Below, piece after piece: positions 1 through 6,451 of a DNA stretch of 6,451 nucleotides. Position numbers and translations under genes: made by a program. Every line of letters starts with the position of its first letter. The first letter of the stretch is position 1. Origin of the DNA: an uncultured SAR324 cluster bacterium (GTDB taxonomy: Bacteria; SAR324; NAC60-12); contig CABXOR010000073.1 of NCBI GenBank assembly GCA_902513935.1, forward strand, positions 1 through 6,451, written 5' to 3'. A model generated the notes under the pieces. That model was given only the letters and a program-made list of their open reading frames with translations. It was not told where the DNA came from and did not search any database.

Positions 1-174
1 ATGTTGCTGGCAGTAGTAGGTCAACTGGGAGATTTGGTAGAATCCAAAATAAAACGGCTCTGCGATGTCAAAGACTCCGGCACTTTGCTGCCCGGACATG
101 GTGGAATCCTTGACAGGATTGATGGTCACATGCTCGCTGCGCCTGTATTTTACTATATATTGCAACTAGGATGA
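1..174 (+). CDS. cdsA: CDP-diacylglycerol synthase (phosphatidate cytidylyltransferase), C-terminal end
   Basis: The frame is open from base 1 and ends at TGA 172-174, giving the last 57 residues; the 5' part lies outside the window, so the ATG at base 1 is probably an internal Met. The enzyme is an inner-membrane protein that makes CDP-diacylglycerol from phosphatidate and CTP, the branch point of phospholipid synthesis. Residues 15-40 fit the CDP-diglyceride synthase signature throughout: S-x-[hydrophobic]-K-R, four residues, K-D-x-G, two residues, L-P-x-H-G-G-I-x-D-R-I-D. The Asp residues of this motif are associated with metal binding and catalysis in the family. A short hydrophobic tail ([11 protein letters not shown]) follows, as expected for the last membrane segment. 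The stop overlaps the next start as ATGA, which suggests translational coupling to dxr. The cdsA-dxr-rseP order is common in Gram-negative bacteria. Confidence 0.94.
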
Positions 175-1424
175 AATCCTCTGCAAGCACAGCAAATGGT
201 AAGGAAGTTCCATCCTCAGTTGTTACTAAATTAACAGTCCTGGGGGCAACAGGTTCGATTGGTATCAATACACTTGAAATAGTTCGGCAGTTTCCGCATA
301 AATTTAAAATTGAAGCCCTGTCCTGCCGAAGTTCAATTGAGCGTTTGGTTGAGCAAATCAAGGAGTTTCAACCACGTTTGGTGTGTGTGGACAACTCTGA
401 GCAAGCACGGGAATTACGTGAAACGTTCCGCGACAGAAATTCCGGTACAGAAACCAAGTTTGTCTGGGGTGTTGAAGGATTAATTCAGATTTCAAGTGAT
501 CCTGAAGTGGATCTAGTGGTAGCCGGAATTGTTGGAGCGGCAGGATTGCAACCAACTTATTCTGCAGTCCAGGCAGGTAAAACAGTGGCAGTGGCCAACA
601 AAGAACCACTTGTGATGGCAGGAGAGCTGTTTGTACAAACAGTTAATAAAACCGGCGCGAAGCTGTTGCCCACAGACAGTGAGCATAATGCGATTTTTCA
701 AGTACTCCACGGAGAGCCTCCGGAGCGAATTGCCAGACTGATTTTGACTGCCTCCGGAGGTCCATTCCGGGATCTTCCTCTGAAGGAGTTTGAAAAGATT
801 ACTCTAGCCGAAGCTCTGAGCCATCCCAATTGGGAGATGGGTCAAAAAATTTCCATCGATTCGGCGACGATGATGAACAAAGGTCTGGAAATAATCGAGG
901 CACACTGGTTGTTCAATACTCCGGTCGAAAATATTGATGTGCTGATGCAGCGGGAAAGCATCATTCATTCGATGGTGGAATTTATTGATGGTTCTTTTTT
1001 GGCGCAAATGGGTCTTCCGGATATGAAAGTTCCAATTGCATACTGTCTCGGCTGGCCCGAACGGCTGCCGTTGAAAATCCCCCGTTTGGATCCACTTTCC
1101 ATGAGTGCGCTCCATTTTGAAAAAATTAACCCGCAGCGCTACCCCTGTCTTCCGCTTGCAATCAAAGTCGCTAAACAGGGCGGAGCAGCACCTGCCGTTT
1201 TGAATGGCGCCAATGAAACAGTTGTTACCGCTTTTTTGGGTGAAGAAATCCACTTTGTTGAGATTGCTGAAACTATTGCAGCCGTGATCAAGGACTTTGA
1301 AAAAGCCTTGCACCAAGTAGATGTTCCTTCTTTCCTTCAGAAAATCCACACACTGGAAGATGCAGAACATGCTGATAAATGGGGACGCAAGCAAGCAAGC
1401 AAAATACTGGAGAGTATTATCTAG
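171..1424 (+). CDS. dxr: 1-deoxy-D-xylulose 5-phosphate reductoisomerase
   Basis: This 417-residue protein is the cytosolic second enzyme of the MEP pathway. It converts DXP to 2-C-methyl-D-erythritol 4-phosphate with NADPH and a divalent metal, and is the fosmidomycin target in the family. The NADPH-binding GATGSIG is at residues 25-31 and the VANKEP motif at 141-146. The metal site is D169 and E171 (TDSEH) plus E240 (MMNKGLE). Substrate-binding residues are S195 (TASGGPF), H218 and W221 (HPNW), S231, N236 and K237. The flexible-loop region is near MGLPDMKVP (280-288), and the C-terminal helical domain includes LNGANE (344-349). The roughly 20 residues before LTVLGATG make it slightly longer than the usual ~400. 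No in-frame ATG, GTG or TTG occurs closer to the fold, so the ATG overlapping the cdsA stop is preferred. All catalytic residues are present and the gene appears functional. Confidence 0.97.
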
Positions 1425-1861: not shown

Positions 1862-3181
1862 ATGCTGACAACAATTTTGTCTTTTATAGCAGTTCTTGGA
1901 GTTTTGATTTTCATTCATGAACTGGGACATTTTCTGGCGGCACGTCATGTAGGCGTGCGTGTCGAAGCCTTTTCAATTGGATTCCCGCCGACTGCGTGGG
2001 GCAAGCAGGTTGGAGATACAGAATACCGGCTTTCGTGGGTTCCAATTGGTGGTTATGTGAAATTATTTGGACAGAACGTCGAGGATGAAAATCCGGATGA
2101 TCAGACAAATTATGCTGCAAAATCAATTTTTCAACGCCTTTACATACTTGCTGCAGGCCCGGCAATGAATCTGTTGTTTGCATTAATTTTTATGCCACTA
2201 GTTTTTTTGATTGGCATGGATATGCCAGCTTATTTAAAAGAACCTCCCCTCATTCAAAATGTCAAACAGGGAAGCTACGCACAGGAAATAGGGATCCACG
2301 CAAATGATGAAATACTCGCAGTGAACGACACCCATGTTAAAAACTGGGAAGAACTGCATAGTGAACTGGCTAAAGTTTCTAGTAAAGAAACTCTGACCAT
2401 GGAAGTTGATCGTTCTGGGAGCTTGGTGATTTTGGAAGGTTCCGGAAAAGCATTTCAGAATGCAGGGCCAATGGGTTGGTCTCCATTTCTTGCTCCGGTT
2501 GTTGGTGAATTTACAGCACAATCACCGGCCATGAAGGCAGGTATTCAAGCTGGTGACAAAGTAACGAGAGTAAACGGCCAGGCTATCCTGGATTGGAGTG
2601 AAATCTCTCCGGCAGTACAACAATTTATGGACGAAAGTGTTAACAATTCGGAAACAGCTACTAAAACACTCACCGTTGAGCTGGAAAGAAATGGCGACAT
2701 TCAATTTGTAGAAGTGGCACCGTATTTAGAGCCAAGGTCCCAAAGATGGCTTTTGGGCATGAGCATGTTAAAGATTTCTCGCTCTTTCTCATTTGGCGAA
2801 TCTGTTATATTGGGAACTTCCCGATTGTGGTTTCTGACAAAAGCTACCTTTGGTTTTCTGGGACAGATGTTCCAGGGAGAAGGCTCAATGGATGACCTTG
2901 GTGGGCCGGTAAAAATTGGGATGGTAATTGGTGATGCAGCCCGCAGCGGAATCGCAGAGCTGTTTTTCCTGATGTCTTTCATAAGTCTGCAGTTGGGTAT
3001 CTTTAATTTGCTTCCGATTCCTGCCCTGGACGGCGGTCACATCTTCATGCTGCTGGTAGAAAAATTCAAGGGCGAACCTTTGAGCTCAGCCTTGCGGGAA
3101 AAGACTCAGATGGTTGGTTTTTCATTACTGATTTCTCTAATGGTTTTTGTGACCTGGAATGACTTGATGAGTTTGTTATAA
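1862..3181 (+). CDS. rseP: Site-2 intramembrane zinc metalloprotease RseP
   Basis: This 439-residue inner-membrane S2P protease cuts transmembrane substrates within the bilayer. In model Gram-negative bacteria these are anti-sigma factors of the envelope stress response and leftover signal peptides. The catalytic HELGH is at residues 19-23 (zinc ligands H19 and H23, E20 catalytic) inside the first membrane helix. The third ligand is D390 in NLLPIPALDGGH (382-393). A membrane segment follows AAGPAMN (97-103), and the last helices lie at about 366-399 and 416-436. Two PDZ-like domains sit between, at about 127-195 and 212-290, each with the A-G-I-x-x-x-D pattern (IGIHANDEILAVN and AGIQAGDKVTRVN). 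Length fits two-PDZ RseP proteins (about 450). No clear Shine-Dalgarno precedes the ATG, but the N-terminus aligns well with the family because HExxH begins near residue 19. No anti-sigma factor or other substrate is encoded in the window. Confidence 0.96.
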   Translation: MLTTILSFIAVLGVLIFIHELGHFLAARHVGVRVEAFSIGFPPTAWGKQVGDTEYRLSWVPIGGYVKLFGQNVEDENPDDQTNYAAKSIFQRLYILAAGPAMNLLFALIFMPLVFLIGMDMPAYLKEPPLIQNVKQGSYAQEIGIHANDEILAVNDTHVKNWEELHSELAKVSSKETLTMEVDRSGSLVILEGSGKAFQNAGPMGWSPFLAPVVGEFTAQSPAMKAGIQAGDKVTRVNGQAILDWSEISPAVQQFMDESVNNSETATKTLTVELERNGDIQFVEVAPYLEPRSQRWLLGMSMLKISRSFSFGESVILGTSRLWFLTKATFGFLGQMFQGEGSMDDLGGPVKIGMVIGDAARSGIAELFFLMSFISLQLGIFNLLPIPALDGGHIFMLLVEKFKGEPLSSALREKTQMVGFSLLISLMVFVTWNDLMSLL

Positions 3182-3324
3182 ATCTTTTTTTTCTGGTGGA
3201 TCTAAGATTTCCAGGATTTGTGGTAAATTTAAAGTTGGACTGTATGGCTGAAACAATACGAACGGAACTTTTCAAAAAATCTAGTTTGATGTAAAACAGG
3301 TTTCTTGATTCAGGACCTTTTAAT

Positions 3325-3359
3325 CGATACCGGTGGTTGGCTTATTCGGTATTGTTTTT
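3325..3359 (+). terminator. Probable intrinsic terminator downstream of rseP
   Basis: CGATACCG at 3325-3332 pairs with CGGTATTG at 3347-3354 over 8 bp, including one G-T wobble, with a 14-nt loop. TTTTT follows directly at 3355-3359. It lies 144 bp after the rseP stop and would end the cdsA-dxr-ACT-rseP transcript. The large loop makes it weaker than a textbook terminator. Confidence 0.5.
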
Positions 3360-3370
3360 AAAGTGGCGAG

Positions 3371-3400
3371 CTTAGTTTAAAAAATAATATGAAAACTAAG
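3371..3400. repeat. Inverted repeat, 8-bp arms
   Basis: CTTAGTTT (3371-3378) and AAACTAAG (3393-3400) are perfect reverse complements separated by a 14-nt AT-only-plus-G loop. No T-run follows, so it does not look like a terminator. It could be a protein-binding site or chance in AT-rich DNA. Confidence 0.35.
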
Positions 3401-3431
3401 TTAGCACTGAAGTAAATTATATTTGGAATAA

Positions 3432-3455
3432 TTCAGTATGTAGTTGCATACTGAA
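3432..3455. repeat. Perfect inverted repeat upstream of the heptad-repeat gene
   Basis: TTCAGTATG (3432-3440) and CATACTGAA (3447-3455) are perfect 9-bp reverse complements with a 6-nt loop, ending 36 bp before the start at 3492. The position suits an operator or a 5'-leader hairpin. The following ATCTTTTCC has only four T in a row, so termination is less likely. Confidence 0.5.
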
Positions 3456-3491
3456 ATCTTTTCCCTAACCTAAATAAATACATGAGACACG

Positions 3492-4463
3492 ATGGCTGAA
3501 CAAGTAACAGGTGGAGAACAAGGCCAGCAAGGTGGCGAAATGGATAGCATGGGTTTTGCTGCGAACCAGGCATACGGAGAAGCTTTAGAAGGTGGGGCAT
3601 CACCCCAAGAGGCCTTTGAAGTTGCCGGCGCTGCAGCTCAAGAAGTAGCAACCGAAATAGGAGTACCTCAAGCAGATTTCGATCAGGGAATTGAAGCTGC
3701 TTTCGACGGTTTTGCAGATGCAATGGCTAGTGGCGCATCACCTGGAGAGGCTTTTGGCTTTGCAATGGAAGCTGCTCAAGAGGCCACAGACACTGATACT
3801 GATATGGGACCTCCGCCTTACCTCGCCCCAACTGGTGACATGACGGATGTAAGCGGTGACATGACAGGGGTTTCCGGAGATGTGTCTACTGTAACTGGGG
3901 ATGTGTCTGGAGTAACCGGAGATGTGTCTACTTTATACGGAGATTTGTCTGGAATAACTGGCGACATGACAGGGGTTGCCGGAGATGTTTCTGGAGTAAT
4001 CGGAGATTTGTCTGGTGCAACTGGCGACATGACAGGTTGCGAGGGTGATATGTCTGGTGCAACTGGCGACATGACAGGTTGCGAGGGTGATATGTCTGAC
4101 GTAACTGGTGACATGACAGGTTGTGAAGGTGACATGACTGGAGTGACTGGCGACATGACCGTTATGTCTGGCGACATGACTGGAGTAGAGGGTCAACCAC
4201 CTGCTGAAATGATGGGAGAAGGTGACCAAGGTATGGGTACCATGGATCAAGCATTTGCTGACGATGGAACGGATAAAGGAACTCCTCCTCCAACGGATGA
4301 TCCAATGGCAGCTGCTATAGACGAAGCAGCTGCGCAAGATGCTGCTAGTAGTATGCCGGAAGCAGGTCAAGGAGCTCTGGATACGCTGGCAGAAGTGGGA
4401 CCACAAGATGATGGTGTTCCAAAGGTAGAGGAAGACGATCAATCTGGTGGAGCTGTAGGTTAA
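3492..4463 (+). CDS. Acidic protein with GD[MV][ST] heptapeptide repeats, function unknown
   Basis: This 323-residue protein is not recognised as a family member. It has three parts. Residues 28-57 and 74-102 are an imperfect helical duplication sharing GASPxEAF followed by AAQE(V)AT. Residues 114-232 are 17 uninterrupted heptads xGD[MVL][ST]xx, with hydrophobic residues at positions 4 and usually 7. Residues 233-323 are an acidic, Pro/Ala/Gly-rich tail. I count about 67 Asp plus Glu against 2 Lys and no Arg. Cysteines occur only at 183, 197 and 211, exactly 14 residues apart. No signal peptide or membrane helix is visible. The 3-4 hydrophobic spacing could suit a coiled coil, but two or more small residues per heptad (Gly, Ser/Thr) favour a β-rich or extended fold. 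The Shine-Dalgarno is weak (GAGA at 3484-3487). The reverse-strand reading of the repeat is also open, but the + frame has gene-like flanks and a start resembling the 4945 gene. Confidence 0.82.
   Translation: MAEQVTGGEQGQQGGEMDSMGFAANQAYGEALEGGASPQEAFEVAGAAAQEVATEIGVPQADFDQGIEAAFDGFADAMASGASPGEAFGFAMEAAQEATDTDTDMGPPPYLAPTGDMTDVSGDMTGVSGDVSTVTGDVSGVTGDVSTLYGDLSGITGDMTGVAGDVSGVIGDLSGATGDMTGCEGDMSGATGDMTGCEGDMSDVTGDMTGCEGDMTGVTGDMTVMSGDMTGVEGQPPAEMMGEGDQGMGTMDQAFADDGTDKGTPPPTDDPMAAAIDEAAAQDAASSMPEAGQGALDTLAEVGPQDDGVPKVEEDDQSGGAVG
3831..4187 (+). repeat. 17 tandem 21-bp units encoding xGD[MVL][ST]xx heptads
   Basis: Residues 114-232 of the protein at 3492 fall in exact 7-residue register with no insertion. 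Gly-Asp is invariant at positions 2-3 in all 17 units. Position 4 is Met, Val or Leu and position 5 Ser or Thr. Position 1 varies (T, S, E, A, I, Y) and position 7 is usually Val, Ile, Leu, Ala or Cys. Units are diverged at synonymous sites except in the central block at 4011-4094. Confidence 0.93.
4011..4094 (+). repeat. Perfect 42-bp tandem duplication within the heptad repeats
   Basis: Bases 4011-4052 and 4053-4094 are identical 42-bp units, each two heptads including one Cys. A third copy at 4095-4136 differs at 7 positions, mostly synonymous apart from the Gly-Ala to Asp-Val change. Identity at the DNA level implies recent duplication by slippage or unequal recombination. Confidence 0.93.
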
Positions 4464-4547
4464 TACCATCCAAGATCAAAAGTGACGCACAATTTCTGCT
4501 GTTGATATTAACAAATTTGAGGGTGTTTTTTTATTATTATTAAATAG

Positions 4548-4576
4548 TTGACTTTTAAAATAATTTTTGATATTTT
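4548..4576 (+). promoter_or_regulatory. Possible sigma-70-type promoter
   Basis: TTGACT (4548-4553) and TATTTT (4571-4576) are separated by 17 bp in AT-rich DNA. Transcription would begin near 4583, just before the hairpin at 4616-4650 and about 360 bp before the next gene. AT-rich sequence gives such matches by chance, so support is modest. Confidence 0.3.
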
Positions 4577-4615
4577 TCTTATTCCAAATTAGTGTAGTCT
4601 TTACTAAGAACGAAG

Positions 4616-4650
4616 GTGGATTTGAGGGAAAAAACCACTCTCGAATCTAC
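4616..4650 (+). other. Strong intergenic hairpin (leader or small-RNA candidate)
   Basis: GTGGATTTGAG (4616-4626) pairs with CTCGAATCTAC (4640-4650) over 11 positions: nine Watson-Crick pairs and two G-T wobbles. The loop is 13 nt, in which GG and CC could extend the stem with a bulge. The G-T wobbles suit an RNA stem on the + strand better than a DNA-binding palindrome. No T-run follows, so it is not an intrinsic terminator. I recognise no riboswitch class. Confidence 0.45.
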
Positions 4651-4731
4651 ATTAAGAATCTCCTCTGTAACTGGTTCTATCTAACCTTTTTCACTATACT
4701 GATTTTGCATCTGTCAATGGGTATGTTGTTG

Positions 4732-4744
4732 AAAATTTCGAAAT
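4732..4744. promoter_or_regulatory. Palindromic site AAAATTTCGAAAT, copy 1
   Basis: This contains the perfect 10-bp palindrome ATTTCGAAAT (4735-4744). The same 13 bases recur 127 bp downstream at 4859-4871. The paired placement upstream of the 4945 gene suggests binding sites for a dimeric regulator; the regulator is unknown. Confidence 0.4.
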
Positions 4745-4858
4745 AGACAATTCTTTTGGTAACTAATTCGACTTTCTTTAAATTATTTTAACAAAAGTTA
4801 AAAAAAAGCTTGACAACCTCTACAAAATGAATGAGTTTTTATGTTAAATAAAAAAAGC

Positions 4859-4872
4859 AAAATTTCGAAATT
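4859..4872. promoter_or_regulatory. Palindromic site AAAATTTCGAAATT, copy 2
   Basis: The 12-bp palindrome AATTTCGAAATT (4861-4872) is perfect and carries the same 13-base core as copy 1. It ends 72 bp before the start at 4945, a normal distance for an operator in or near a promoter. Confidence 0.42.
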
Positions 4873-4944
4873 CATATTAGATTTTCAAGTCAAGCTGACG
4901 ACTCTAAACTCTAGCGTAATTTTTAACACAAAAAAGGATATAAA

Positions 4945-5316
4945 ATGGCTGAAAATGAAAAAATGGTTCTGACTAAGGGTTCCGCAGATCAGACAAAGGC
5001 CGCTGTGGCAAGGAATAATTCAACTATGGCAGCAACAAAGTTGGCTGCAGCACAGGCTAATTTAAAAAGGTCAATAGAATCGGTAGGAGCAAAGTCCACC
5101 ATTGCAACAAAAAAGGCATCTGCGGCACAGGTTAATTCAAGCATGGCAACAAAAAAGGCATCTGCGGCACAGGTTAATTCAACCATTGCAACAAAAAAGG
5201 CAGCTGCGGCACAGGCTAGTTCAACCATGGCAGCAGCATCTGCAGTGGCAACGGCAAAGATGTCCCAACAAAAGGCAAATGTGATGCATGGTAGAATTAA
5301 GCAAGCAACTGCTTAA
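4945..5316 (+). CDS. Basic Ala/Lys/Ser-rich protein with 14-residue repeats, function unknown
   Basis: This 123-residue protein starts MAENEK. An AAAGGA ribosome binding site at 4933-4938 lies 6 nt before the ATG, which decides the start. Residues 51-106 are four consecutive 14-residue units of the type S[ST][IM]ATKKAxAAQxx, the last one diverged. A related unit occurs at 26-39, separated by a short linker that includes KRSIESVGAK (41-50). I count 18 Lys plus Arg against 4 acidic residues, so it is strongly basic. The Ala-rich, Lys-patterned repeats predict a long helix, somewhat like histone H1-type tails or other nucleic-acid-binding or polyanion-binding proteins; this is composition-based only. 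There is no signal peptide or membrane helix. The gene is 40 bp upstream of the acidic nonapeptide-repeat gene and probably co-transcribed with it, so binding to an acidic partner is an attractive but unproven idea. Confidence 0.8.
   Translation: MAENEKMVLTKGSADQTKAAVARNNSTMAATKLAAAQANLKRSIESVGAKSTIATKKASAAQVNSSMATKKASAAQVNSTIATKKAAAAQASSTMAAASAVATAKMSQQKANVMHGRIKQATA
5095..5262 (+). repeat. Four tandem 42-bp units encoding ATKKA[SA]AAQ repeats
   Basis: The units are 5095-5136, 5137-5178, 5179-5220 and 5221-5262. The first three are nearly identical, sharing GCAACAAAAAAGGCA in each. The fourth keeps only the start (TCAACCATGGCA) and the composition. An older, separate copy lies at 5020-5061. 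Confidence 0.92.
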
Positions 5317-5345
5317 TAAAATAACCTCAAATTAACACTAAATCT

Positions 5346-5350
5346 AGGAG
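5346..5350 (+). promoter_or_regulatory. Ribosome binding site fixing the start of the nonapeptide-repeat gene
   Basis: AGGAG at 5346-5350 is 6 nt before ATG 5357. It is the best ribosome binding site in the window and settles which of the several open frames in the repeat region is translated. Confidence 0.8.
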
Positions 5351-5356
5351 AAAACA

Positions 5357-6451
5357 ATGGCACAAGCATATACAAATGATGACGGTTCGACCGGCACTTA
5401 TAATGAAGATGGAAGTGGAAGCTATACCGCTGCAGATGGTTCGACCCAAACTTGGGATGCAGATGGTGGTGGAACCTATACTGAAGCGGATGGTTCCTCT
5501 GGTTCTTATTCTGCAGAAGGTTCGTATACCCACAACGATGCTGATGGCAACTCGTACAGCGGGGATGCAGAAGGCAATCATAGCTATGAAGGTGCAGATG
5601 GCTCAACCGGTACTATGAGTGCGGACGGTTCAGGTTCCTATACCGGTGCTGATGGAACAACTGCAACCCAGGATACAGATGGCAACGGAAGCTATGAAAT
5701 GGCAGATGGCTCATCCGGTACTTGGGATGCAGATGGTGGTGGAACTTATACTGAAGCCGATGGTTCCTCTGGTTCTTATTCTGCAGACGGTTCAGGTTCC
5801 TATACAGATGCCGATGGCTCATCCGGTACTTGGGATGCAGATGGTGGTGGAACCTATGAAAGTGCCGATGGTTCCTCTGGTTCTTATTCTGCAGATGGTT
5901 CGTATTCCCACACCGATGCAGATGGCAATTCCCACAGCCAAGATGCAGATGGCAACGAGAGCTATACCGGTGCAGATGGTTCTTCAGGCACCGTGAATGC
6001 GGACGGTTCAAGTACCCACACCGATGCAGATGGCAATTCCCACAGCATGGATGCAGATGGCAACGAGAGCTATACCGGTGCCGATGGCTCAACCGCCACC
6101 ATGAATGCAGACGGTTCAGGTACCTATACAGGTGCAGATGGAACAACTGCATCCATGGATACAGAAGGCAACGGAAGCTATGAAATGGCCGATGGCTCAT
6201 CCGGTACTTGGGATGCAGATGGTGGTGGAACCTATGAAAGTGCAGATGGTTCCTCTGGTTCTTATACTGCAGATGGTTCGCATTCCCACACCGATGCAGA
6301 TGGCAATTCCCACAGCGTGGATGCAGATGGCAACGAAAGCTATACCGGTGCAGATGGATCGTCAGGCACCATGAGTGCGGACGGTTCAAGTACCCACACT
6401 GATGCAGATGGCAATTCCCACAGTGTGGATGCAGATGGCAACGAGAGCTAT
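5357..6451 (+). CDS. Asp/Gly/Ser-rich nonapeptide-repeat protein, 3' end outside window
   Basis: The frame opens at ATG 5357 and runs without a stop to the last base: 365 residues and continuing. Only the first ten residues (MAQAYTNDDG) precede the repeat, and even they resemble a unit. From residue 11 there are 39 complete 9-residue units ending in [ADE][DE]G, mostly ADG, with no insertion or deletion. Unit types include SSGTWDADG, GGTYESADG, NSHSVDADG and NESYTGADG. The visible part has 70 Asp plus Glu and no Lys, Arg, Leu, Ile, Phe, Pro or Cys; the aromatics are Tyr and Trp, with His in some units. There is no signal peptide. A nonapeptide period rich in Asp and Gly recalls RTX calcium β-rolls, but GGxGxD is absent. 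DADGN also recalls calcium-loop motifs. A repetitive adhesin, matrix or mineral/ion-binding protein is possible; no family is recognised. It is likely co-transcribed with the gene at 4945. Confidence 0.9.
   Translation, partial: MAQAYTNDDGSTGTYNEDGSGSYTAADGSTQTWDADGGGTYTEADGSSGSYSAEGSYTHNDADGNSYSGDAEGNHSYEGADGSTGTMSADGSGSYTGADGTTATQDTDGNGSYEMADGSSGTWDADGGGTYTEADGSSGSYSADGSGSYTDADGSSGTWDADGGGTYESADGSSGSYSADGSYSHTDADGNSHSQDADGNESYTGADGSSGTVNADGSSTHTDADGNSHSMDADGNESYTGADGSTATMNADGSGTYTGADGTTASMDTEGNGSYEMADGSSGTWDADGGGTYESADGSSGSYTADGSHSHTDADGNSHSVDADGNESYTGADGSSGTMSADGSSTHTDADGNSHSVDADGNESY
5387..6439 (+). repeat. 39 tandem 27-bp units encoding xxxxxxADG nonapeptides
   Basis: Each unit is exactly 27 bp and ends in codons for Asp/Glu-Gly (GAT or GAC, or GAA in a few, then GGN), nearly always preceded by Ala. 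The array continues past the window: a partial fortieth unit occupies 6440-6451. Synonymous codons differ among units, which indicates long-term selection on the protein pattern. Longer blocks are nearly identical. Confidence 0.96.
5819..6451 (+). repeat. 378-bp higher-order repeat of 14 nonapeptide units
   Basis: Units 17-30 (5819-6196) recur unit for unit as 31-39 plus the partial unit (from 6197), an offset of 378 bp. For example, the SSGTWDADG-GGTYESADG pair near 5821 and near 6199 is identical over 45 bases. An earlier version, units 3-12, has 10 units and lacks the four-unit segment of types SSGT, SSTH, NSHS and NESY. Confidence 0.85.

Follow-up and report, generated by a model that had tools for sequence, protein, structure and literature searches.

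The window analysed here, a stretch of 6,451 nucleotides from an uncultured SAR324 cluster bacterium (contig CABXOR010000073.1, assembly GCA_902513935.1), ends within a gene for an acidic protein built of nine-residue units that mostly close on Ala-Asp-Gly, referred to below as the ADG gene and the ADG protein. The window appears to be chromosomal SAR324 DNA, carrying dxr, an ACT-domain gene and rseP, the last with 93% and 92% identity to SAR324 genomes at loci L001 and L002, respectively. Three unusual genes follow rseP on the same strand, encoding a GDMTG heptad-repeat protein, a basic Lys/Ala-rich protein and then the ADG protein; the latter two genes appear to be co-transcribed. No promoter or terminator signals above chance were found in positions 3150-5450.

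171..1424, forward strand: dxr (DXP reductoisomerase), chromosomal context
1862..3181, forward strand: rseP (site-2 protease, M50/PDZ), syntenic anchor
3492..4463, forward strand: acidic GDMTG heptad-repeat protein, 323 amino acids, isoelectric point (pI) 4.05; its relatives are encoded immediately before genes for type I exporters
4945..5316, forward strand: basic Lys/Ala-rich repeat protein, 123 amino acids, pI 10.8; its stop lies 40 nucleotides before the ADG gene
5346..5350, forward strand: ribosome-binding site AGGAG, read directly, 6 nucleotides before the ATG of the ADG gene
5357..6451, forward strand: ADG gene with acidic nonapeptide repeats, 365 codons or more, 40 units corresponding to 40 predicted beta-strands; open at the window end

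A sequence-only reading of this DNA had described a ribosome-binding site, a frame open for at least 365 codons and a protein with a reduced alphabet, all of which are borne out: AGGAG precedes the start codon, no stop occurs in 5357-6451, and the visible protein uses 13 amino acids, with Lys, Arg, Leu, Ile, Phe, Pro and Cys absent and 70 acidic residues set against no Lys or Arg. The pI of this part is 4.05 and its net charge is about -70 over 365 residues. Counted from residue 2, all 40 nonapeptides end in Asp-Gly or Glu-Gly, while the other eight frames give at most one such unit, and [DE]G pairs at a spacing of nine number 39, compared with a mean of 0.5 and a maximum of 5 in 1000 shuffles. 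The registered acidic nonapeptide repeat is thereby confirmed, although the strict ADG ending that had been claimed for every unit does not hold, as three units end in EG against 37 in DG, and Ala occupies position 7 in 36 of the 40. Between copies 126 residues apart, the ratio of non-synonymous to synonymous differences (pN/pS) is 0.50 in frame versus 1.11 and 1.00 in the other two frames, which indicates that the ADG frame is under protein-level constraint. The opposite strand of the repeats, 5613-6449 on the reverse strand, is likewise open for 278 codons, probably as a by-product of the repeat codons. The window stops inside the repeats, so that the full length lies beyond position 6451, and the earlier label of a giant gene goes further than the visible part shows; the best complete relative found, L081 of genome G029, has 693 amino acids and is 58% identical over 254 residues (E 2e-62).

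Copies of the repeat are more alike at multiples of 18 residues (identity 0.48-0.75) than at odd multiples of nine (0.33-0.38), and therefore two unlike strands alternate. Position 4 is Tyr or His in all 20 even-numbered units, and position 5 is Tyr, Met, Trp, Val or Gln in 19 of the 20 odd-numbered ones. Ser or Thr flanks these residues at position 3 of 19 even units and at positions 2 and 4 of every odd unit; position 5 of the even units is Ser or Thr in 14 of 20, the remainder being five Glu and one Asn. All 50 Tyr, Trp, His, Met and Val residues share the same residue-number parity, and adjacent units never carry bulky residues at the same position, compared with a shuffled mean of 16.3. 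The same alternation is seen in L081 (22 to 0). If, following the structural model described below, each unit's strand is placed at positions 2-5, hairpin partners sum to 7, and all bulky residues would then lie on one face, the opposite face being Ser or Thr at 73 of 80 positions. The register behind the two unlike faces of the predicted sheet is inferred from the model's secondary structure; a partner sum of 8 would alternate the faces instead. The A-D-G sequence suits a type I turn with a G1 bulge.

The AlphaFold2 model of the ADG protein is confident and renders the 40 units as 40 beta-strands. Among the 50 Foldseek matches listed for each search, the closest solved folds are single-layer antiparallel meanders; those from the PDB also include chains of the ciliary apparatus, Rhs proteins and teneurin at low template modelling (TM) scores. 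In a viral fold library, most of the 50 matches listed are giant-virus proteins of the MORN and F-box kinds, a likeness of fold only. High model confidence is not automatic, because the GDMTG protein, modelled in the same way with six sequences, reached a predicted local distance difference test (pLDDT) value of only 62.9 in this one comparison. The model makes it quite likely that the ADG protein is a freestanding single antiparallel sheet without a hydrophobic core. An extended repeat architecture lacking an ordinary globular core had been anticipated from the sequence and is upheld; the beta-solenoid suggested alongside it disagrees with the meanders found as the closest solved folds.

Membership of known families was examined with profiles. 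Among five relatives scanned, Tcp10_C (PF07202) is matched above its gathering score by P0001 and P0002, and not by L081, P0004 or P0011. P0001 is 40% identical to the ADG protein over 73% of the window protein (E 2.8e-33), and its Tcp10_C-matching part aligns beside the window repeats. Precomputed Tcp10_C labels are carried by 4 of the 33 matches of the ADG protein and by 19 of the 33 matches of L081, two matches being shared. Labelled L081 matches include proteins of Streptomyces ('AAWKG family', P0041) and Terasakiella (P0047), and the four matches named Magnetococcales or Magnetococcus are without the label. Both homologue searches with the repeat proteins scored only about 8,000 candidates sharing most words. 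The PF07202 profile matched none of the 52 genomes of the class, but none of 14 controls either. By the profile test the ADG protein is not a Tcp10_C member; because its homologues P0001 and P0002 match that family, its repeats are related to those of Tcp10_C or resemble them, in a divergent form that lacks proline. The earlier statement that no family could be recognised thus stands for the window protein and fails for these two homologues.

The comparison proposed earlier with RTX, dockerin, TSP3 and ice-nucleation repeats does not support a described calcium repeat: none of these gave a Pfam match at E ≤ 1, and the ADG protein has neither the RTX motif GGxGx[DN] nor the DxDxDG loop of dockerin, TSP3 and EF-hand proteins; [DN]xDG occurs 19 times. 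A phmmer match to PDB entry 8zxl ('spindlefibril', E 1.9e-7) was rejected as compositional, the entry having a collagen-like GAP repeat and its three domains 44.5-49.6 bits of bias with independent E-values of 0.26-3.8 each. Up to E 10, just one further PDB sequence matched, CPAP 4ld1 (E 2.9), a lead rather than a test. PHROG 36982 (E 3.9e-4) and the collagen-like adhesin NF038329 (E 0.24) were also judged compositional, and a scan of viral contigs returned ten pattern matches and no confirmed relative. Seven proteins of 370-427 amino acids (P0003, P0004, P0006, P0007, P0010, P0011 and P0012) combine N-terminal ADGSWGY-type repeats, an acidic stretch and a C-terminal region, which in P0011 is near PASTA, below the cut-off. 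L081 (1342-3423, reverse strand) and P0001 both open with a Lys-rich stretch followed by the motif LEDRIAPG, possibly a targeting signal; the window protein is without this motif. The papers listed for SAR324 type I secretion and adhesins, Tcp10_C in bacteria, bacterial MORN proteins and secreted single-layer sheets included nothing on the ADG protein.

The genomic setting of related genes points to export. In genomes G018 and G012, an ADG stretch lies within an acidic protein encoded directly upstream of an ATP-binding cassette (ABC) transporter and a HlyD protein that binds cyclic nucleotide monophosphates. The transporter of locus L004, the same protein as in G018, best matches type I secretion permease models, below their cut-offs. 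Of the 17 genomes in the nearest genus, 8 have this ABC family, which at E ≤ 1e-60 was matched in 10 of the 52 genomes of the class, the G032 and G048 members being distant (23-29% identical). In all six genomes with the upstream gene on the contig (G012, G014, G018, G024, G025 and, in fragments, G026), this gene encodes an acidic GDMTG or ADG protein, two of them with the ADG repeat. The contigs of G001 and G013 have just 107 and 110 bases in front of the ABC gene. The GDMTG gene of G001 is on a separate contig, apparently L001, which stops 176 bases after it, and this assembly break falls in the interval that holds the basic and ADG genes in the window. Five of the eight closest rseP loci (L001-L008) were inspected, and the cassette downstream of rseP is present in L004 and frameshifted in L002. 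In G029 the order is GAF-HlyD, M50-HlyD, ADG protein, a basic 104-residue protein, HlyD and outer-membrane efflux protein (OEP) genes, an export-like but different setting. Substrates of type I secretion are typically acidic and cysteine-poor, and the visible part of the ADG protein, with its low pI and no Cys, agrees with this. By analogy with these neighbourhoods in relatives, the ADG protein is probably exported.

GDMTG genes were located in the window (3492-4463) and at L120:2554-3921, L121:5447-6427, L122:217-1422 and L004:11535-12533. The low-confidence GDMTG model has a helical N-terminal part (residues 17-99), short heptad strands and a low-confidence tail, and six aligned GDMTG proteins have a common acidic Gly-rich C-terminal end. 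These proteins are candidates for a second type of exported repeat protein. At L003:11364-11765 (reverse strand) of NORP237, the first gene after rseP encodes a small lipoprotein-like MORN protein (Pfam E 9.6e-33). Locus L093 (G026:C1:585000-604000) carries, about 11-19 kb in, genes for a T4-type portal (E 6.5e-69) and a prohead protease, on the same contig as genes that read like flagellar and, by eye, phosphoenolpyruvate carboxykinase genes.

A small basic protein adjoins the acidic ADG gene in both loci, with a pI of 10.8 in the window and 11.5 in G029. The basic protein of the window has 46 relatives of 67-136 amino acids at E ≤ 0.01 in the protein database, for 40 of which the longest contig is shorter than 1.5 kb; at E ≤ 1 Pfam gives it no family, and a search of the 52 class genomes, run without a positive control, gave no match. 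Five DG-repeat relatives (P0034, P0035, P0036, P0037 and P0039), four of them named Magnetococcales or Magnetococcus, have a basic end after the acidic repeats, the pI of their last 130 residues being 11.4-12.0. Homology between the 104-residue protein beside L081 and these C-termini was not accepted (best E 0.04, without composition correction). Because the basic proteins are not detectably homologous, the acidic/basic pairing across loci is an analogy, and a role of the basic protein as a partner of the ADG protein is speculative.

It is proposed that the ADG gene encodes an exported structural protein of the SAR324 bacterium. Each nonapeptide would contribute a short beta-strand and then turn tightly at A-D-G, giving at least 40 strands in one freestanding antiparallel sheet. 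As a beta-strand takes up 0.48 nm, the visible part would be a ribbon of about 19 nm, with a ladder of Tyr, Trp, His, Met and Val on one face, Ser and Thr on the other and rows of Asp and Glu along both edges. The chain would pass out of the cell unfolded by way of a type I exporter, which its acidic, cysteine-free composition permits, and would fold outside into a scaffold or adhesive ribbon, whose bulky face may stack or bind surfaces and whose acidic edges may hold cations or the basic protein encoded upstream. Taken as a whole, this exported beta-ribbon is considered slightly more probable than not. A scaffold or matrix role is plausible, and the extracellular scaffold or adhesive ribbon in particular is a guess that agrees with the anatomy, with the balance tilted against it.

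Several observations weigh against this proposal. The model aligns with TCP domains at 14-21% identity and a root-mean-square deviation of 2.8-9.9; its predicted TM score is only 0.58, from an alignment of ten sequences, and AlphaFold2 can be overconfident on tandem repeats with shallow alignments. Pfam scans gave no family for the window ADG protein at E ≤ 1 or for L081, its closest full-length relative, at E ≤ 0.1. There are no exporter genes within the window, which ends short of the place that they would take, the C-terminus, where a secretion signal is expected, lies beyond it, and the usual neighbour of the exporter is of the GDMTG rather than the ADG type. The sister loci L003 and L008 have no cassette in the approximately 10 kb after rseP. 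Convincing ADG repeats occur in 3 of the 52 class genomes (G029, with short forms in G018 and G012), reduced from five after matches in G026, interrupted by 17 stops, and in G005, a low-complexity frame at E 5.9e-4, were dismissed as chance.

The absence of an aliphatic core, the high net negative charge and the shallow alignment behind the model would also suit a disordered polyanion, in which the acidic, hydrophilic coil forms no stable sheet and serves as a cation buffer or a flexible spacer. In a pure spacer, however, nothing would require the 50 bulky residues all to keep one parity, their position to alternate between 4 and 5, or a turn to be conserved in each nonapeptide, and the single GDMTG comparison argues against confidence arising automatically; this explanation is held to be unlikely. 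Somewhat less likely again is a calcium-folded repeat: the protein would be a new kind of stalk, akin to RTX or dockerin, whose DADG turns take up Ca2+ and so make the chain fold once it has been exported. RTX proteins are typical of type I exporter loci, in which the relatives sit, and [DN]xDG recurs along the protein, but neither GGxGxD nor DxDxDG nor any Pfam family at E ≤ 1 was found, and the TCP domain, the closest fold, is a plain meander.

A beta-solenoid with two strands per 18-residue coil would account for the 18-residue period, and solenoids tolerate such repeats; yet its buried face would hold Tyr, Gly and His, branched aliphatics being limited to three Val, and the confident model best matches meanders among the matches listed, which leaves this fold improbable. 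A repeat-rich spurious frame or an assembly artefact could be suspected from the window ending within the repeats and from the open antisense frame, but is already contradicted by the in-frame pN/pS, the ribosome-binding site and the complete relative L081, and is considered highly improbable.

The exported beta-ribbon proposed here has its nearest counterpart in the TCP (G-box) domain of CPAP/SAS-4, the Tcp10_C domain of PF07202, with which the ADG protein would share a predicted single-layer antiparallel beta-meander, x-D-G turns and no hydrophobic core. In its 2013 description, this domain was presented as, to its authors' knowledge, the unique natural protein consisting solely of a freestanding beta-meander without a core (PMC3776556). 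The ADG protein differs in having no Pfam match, ADG turns or their variants instead of PDG, no proline at all, at least 40 strands instead of about 20 and a far more regular and acidic sequence; it comes from a bacterium and may be exported, whereas CPAP, a STIL-binding protein, belongs to the centriole, and the TCP domain is further marked by binding a proline-rich partner along the edge of its sheet. Other Tcp10_C-labelled proteins, such as P0001, P0002, P0047 and P0041, have similarly DG-spaced repeats, which are more degenerate and, in those inspected, flanked by other regions; no paper on bacterial Tcp10_C proteins was found, as judged by title. OspA, on which engineered single-layer sheets are based, is unlike the ADG protein in that its sheet is capped by globular ends and is not made of nonapeptides. 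The MORN unit (PF02493), given as 23 residues with a YEGEW-type motif (PMC7725318), contrasts with the ADG unit of 9 or 18 residues, which has no Pfam match. Locus L089 of a relative, with its GAF-HlyD, M50-HlyD, HlyD and OEP genes, resembles the SecA-associated GAF/HlyD and M50/HlyD loci of Kamneva et al. 2015 (PMC4452313), although SecA was not seen by eye among the L089 and L090 frames, and the parts of that article consulted name no repeat-protein substrate.

Judged by the model, the ADG protein would extend the freestanding beta-meander, in a bacterium, to unusual length and regularity; it would not amount to a new kind of fold. A bolder possibility, regarded as doubtful, is that SAR324 secretes a beta-ribbon with two unlike faces, each ribbon being one molecule whose tens of strands make up a covalently linked cross-beta sheet, and that this assembles with a basic partner into an extracellular fabric; if true, engineered single-layer beta-sheets and the TCP sheet of animal centrioles would have a genetically encoded counterpart in nature. 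Confirmation of the sheet would mean that freestanding sheets are stable at greater length, with at least 40 very similar strands, and would provide a simple natural system for studying how core-less beta-sheets stay soluble. SAR324 is an abundant ocean lineage, and the finding, if confirmed, would suggest that these bacteria make a surface or matrix material that has gone unrecognised.
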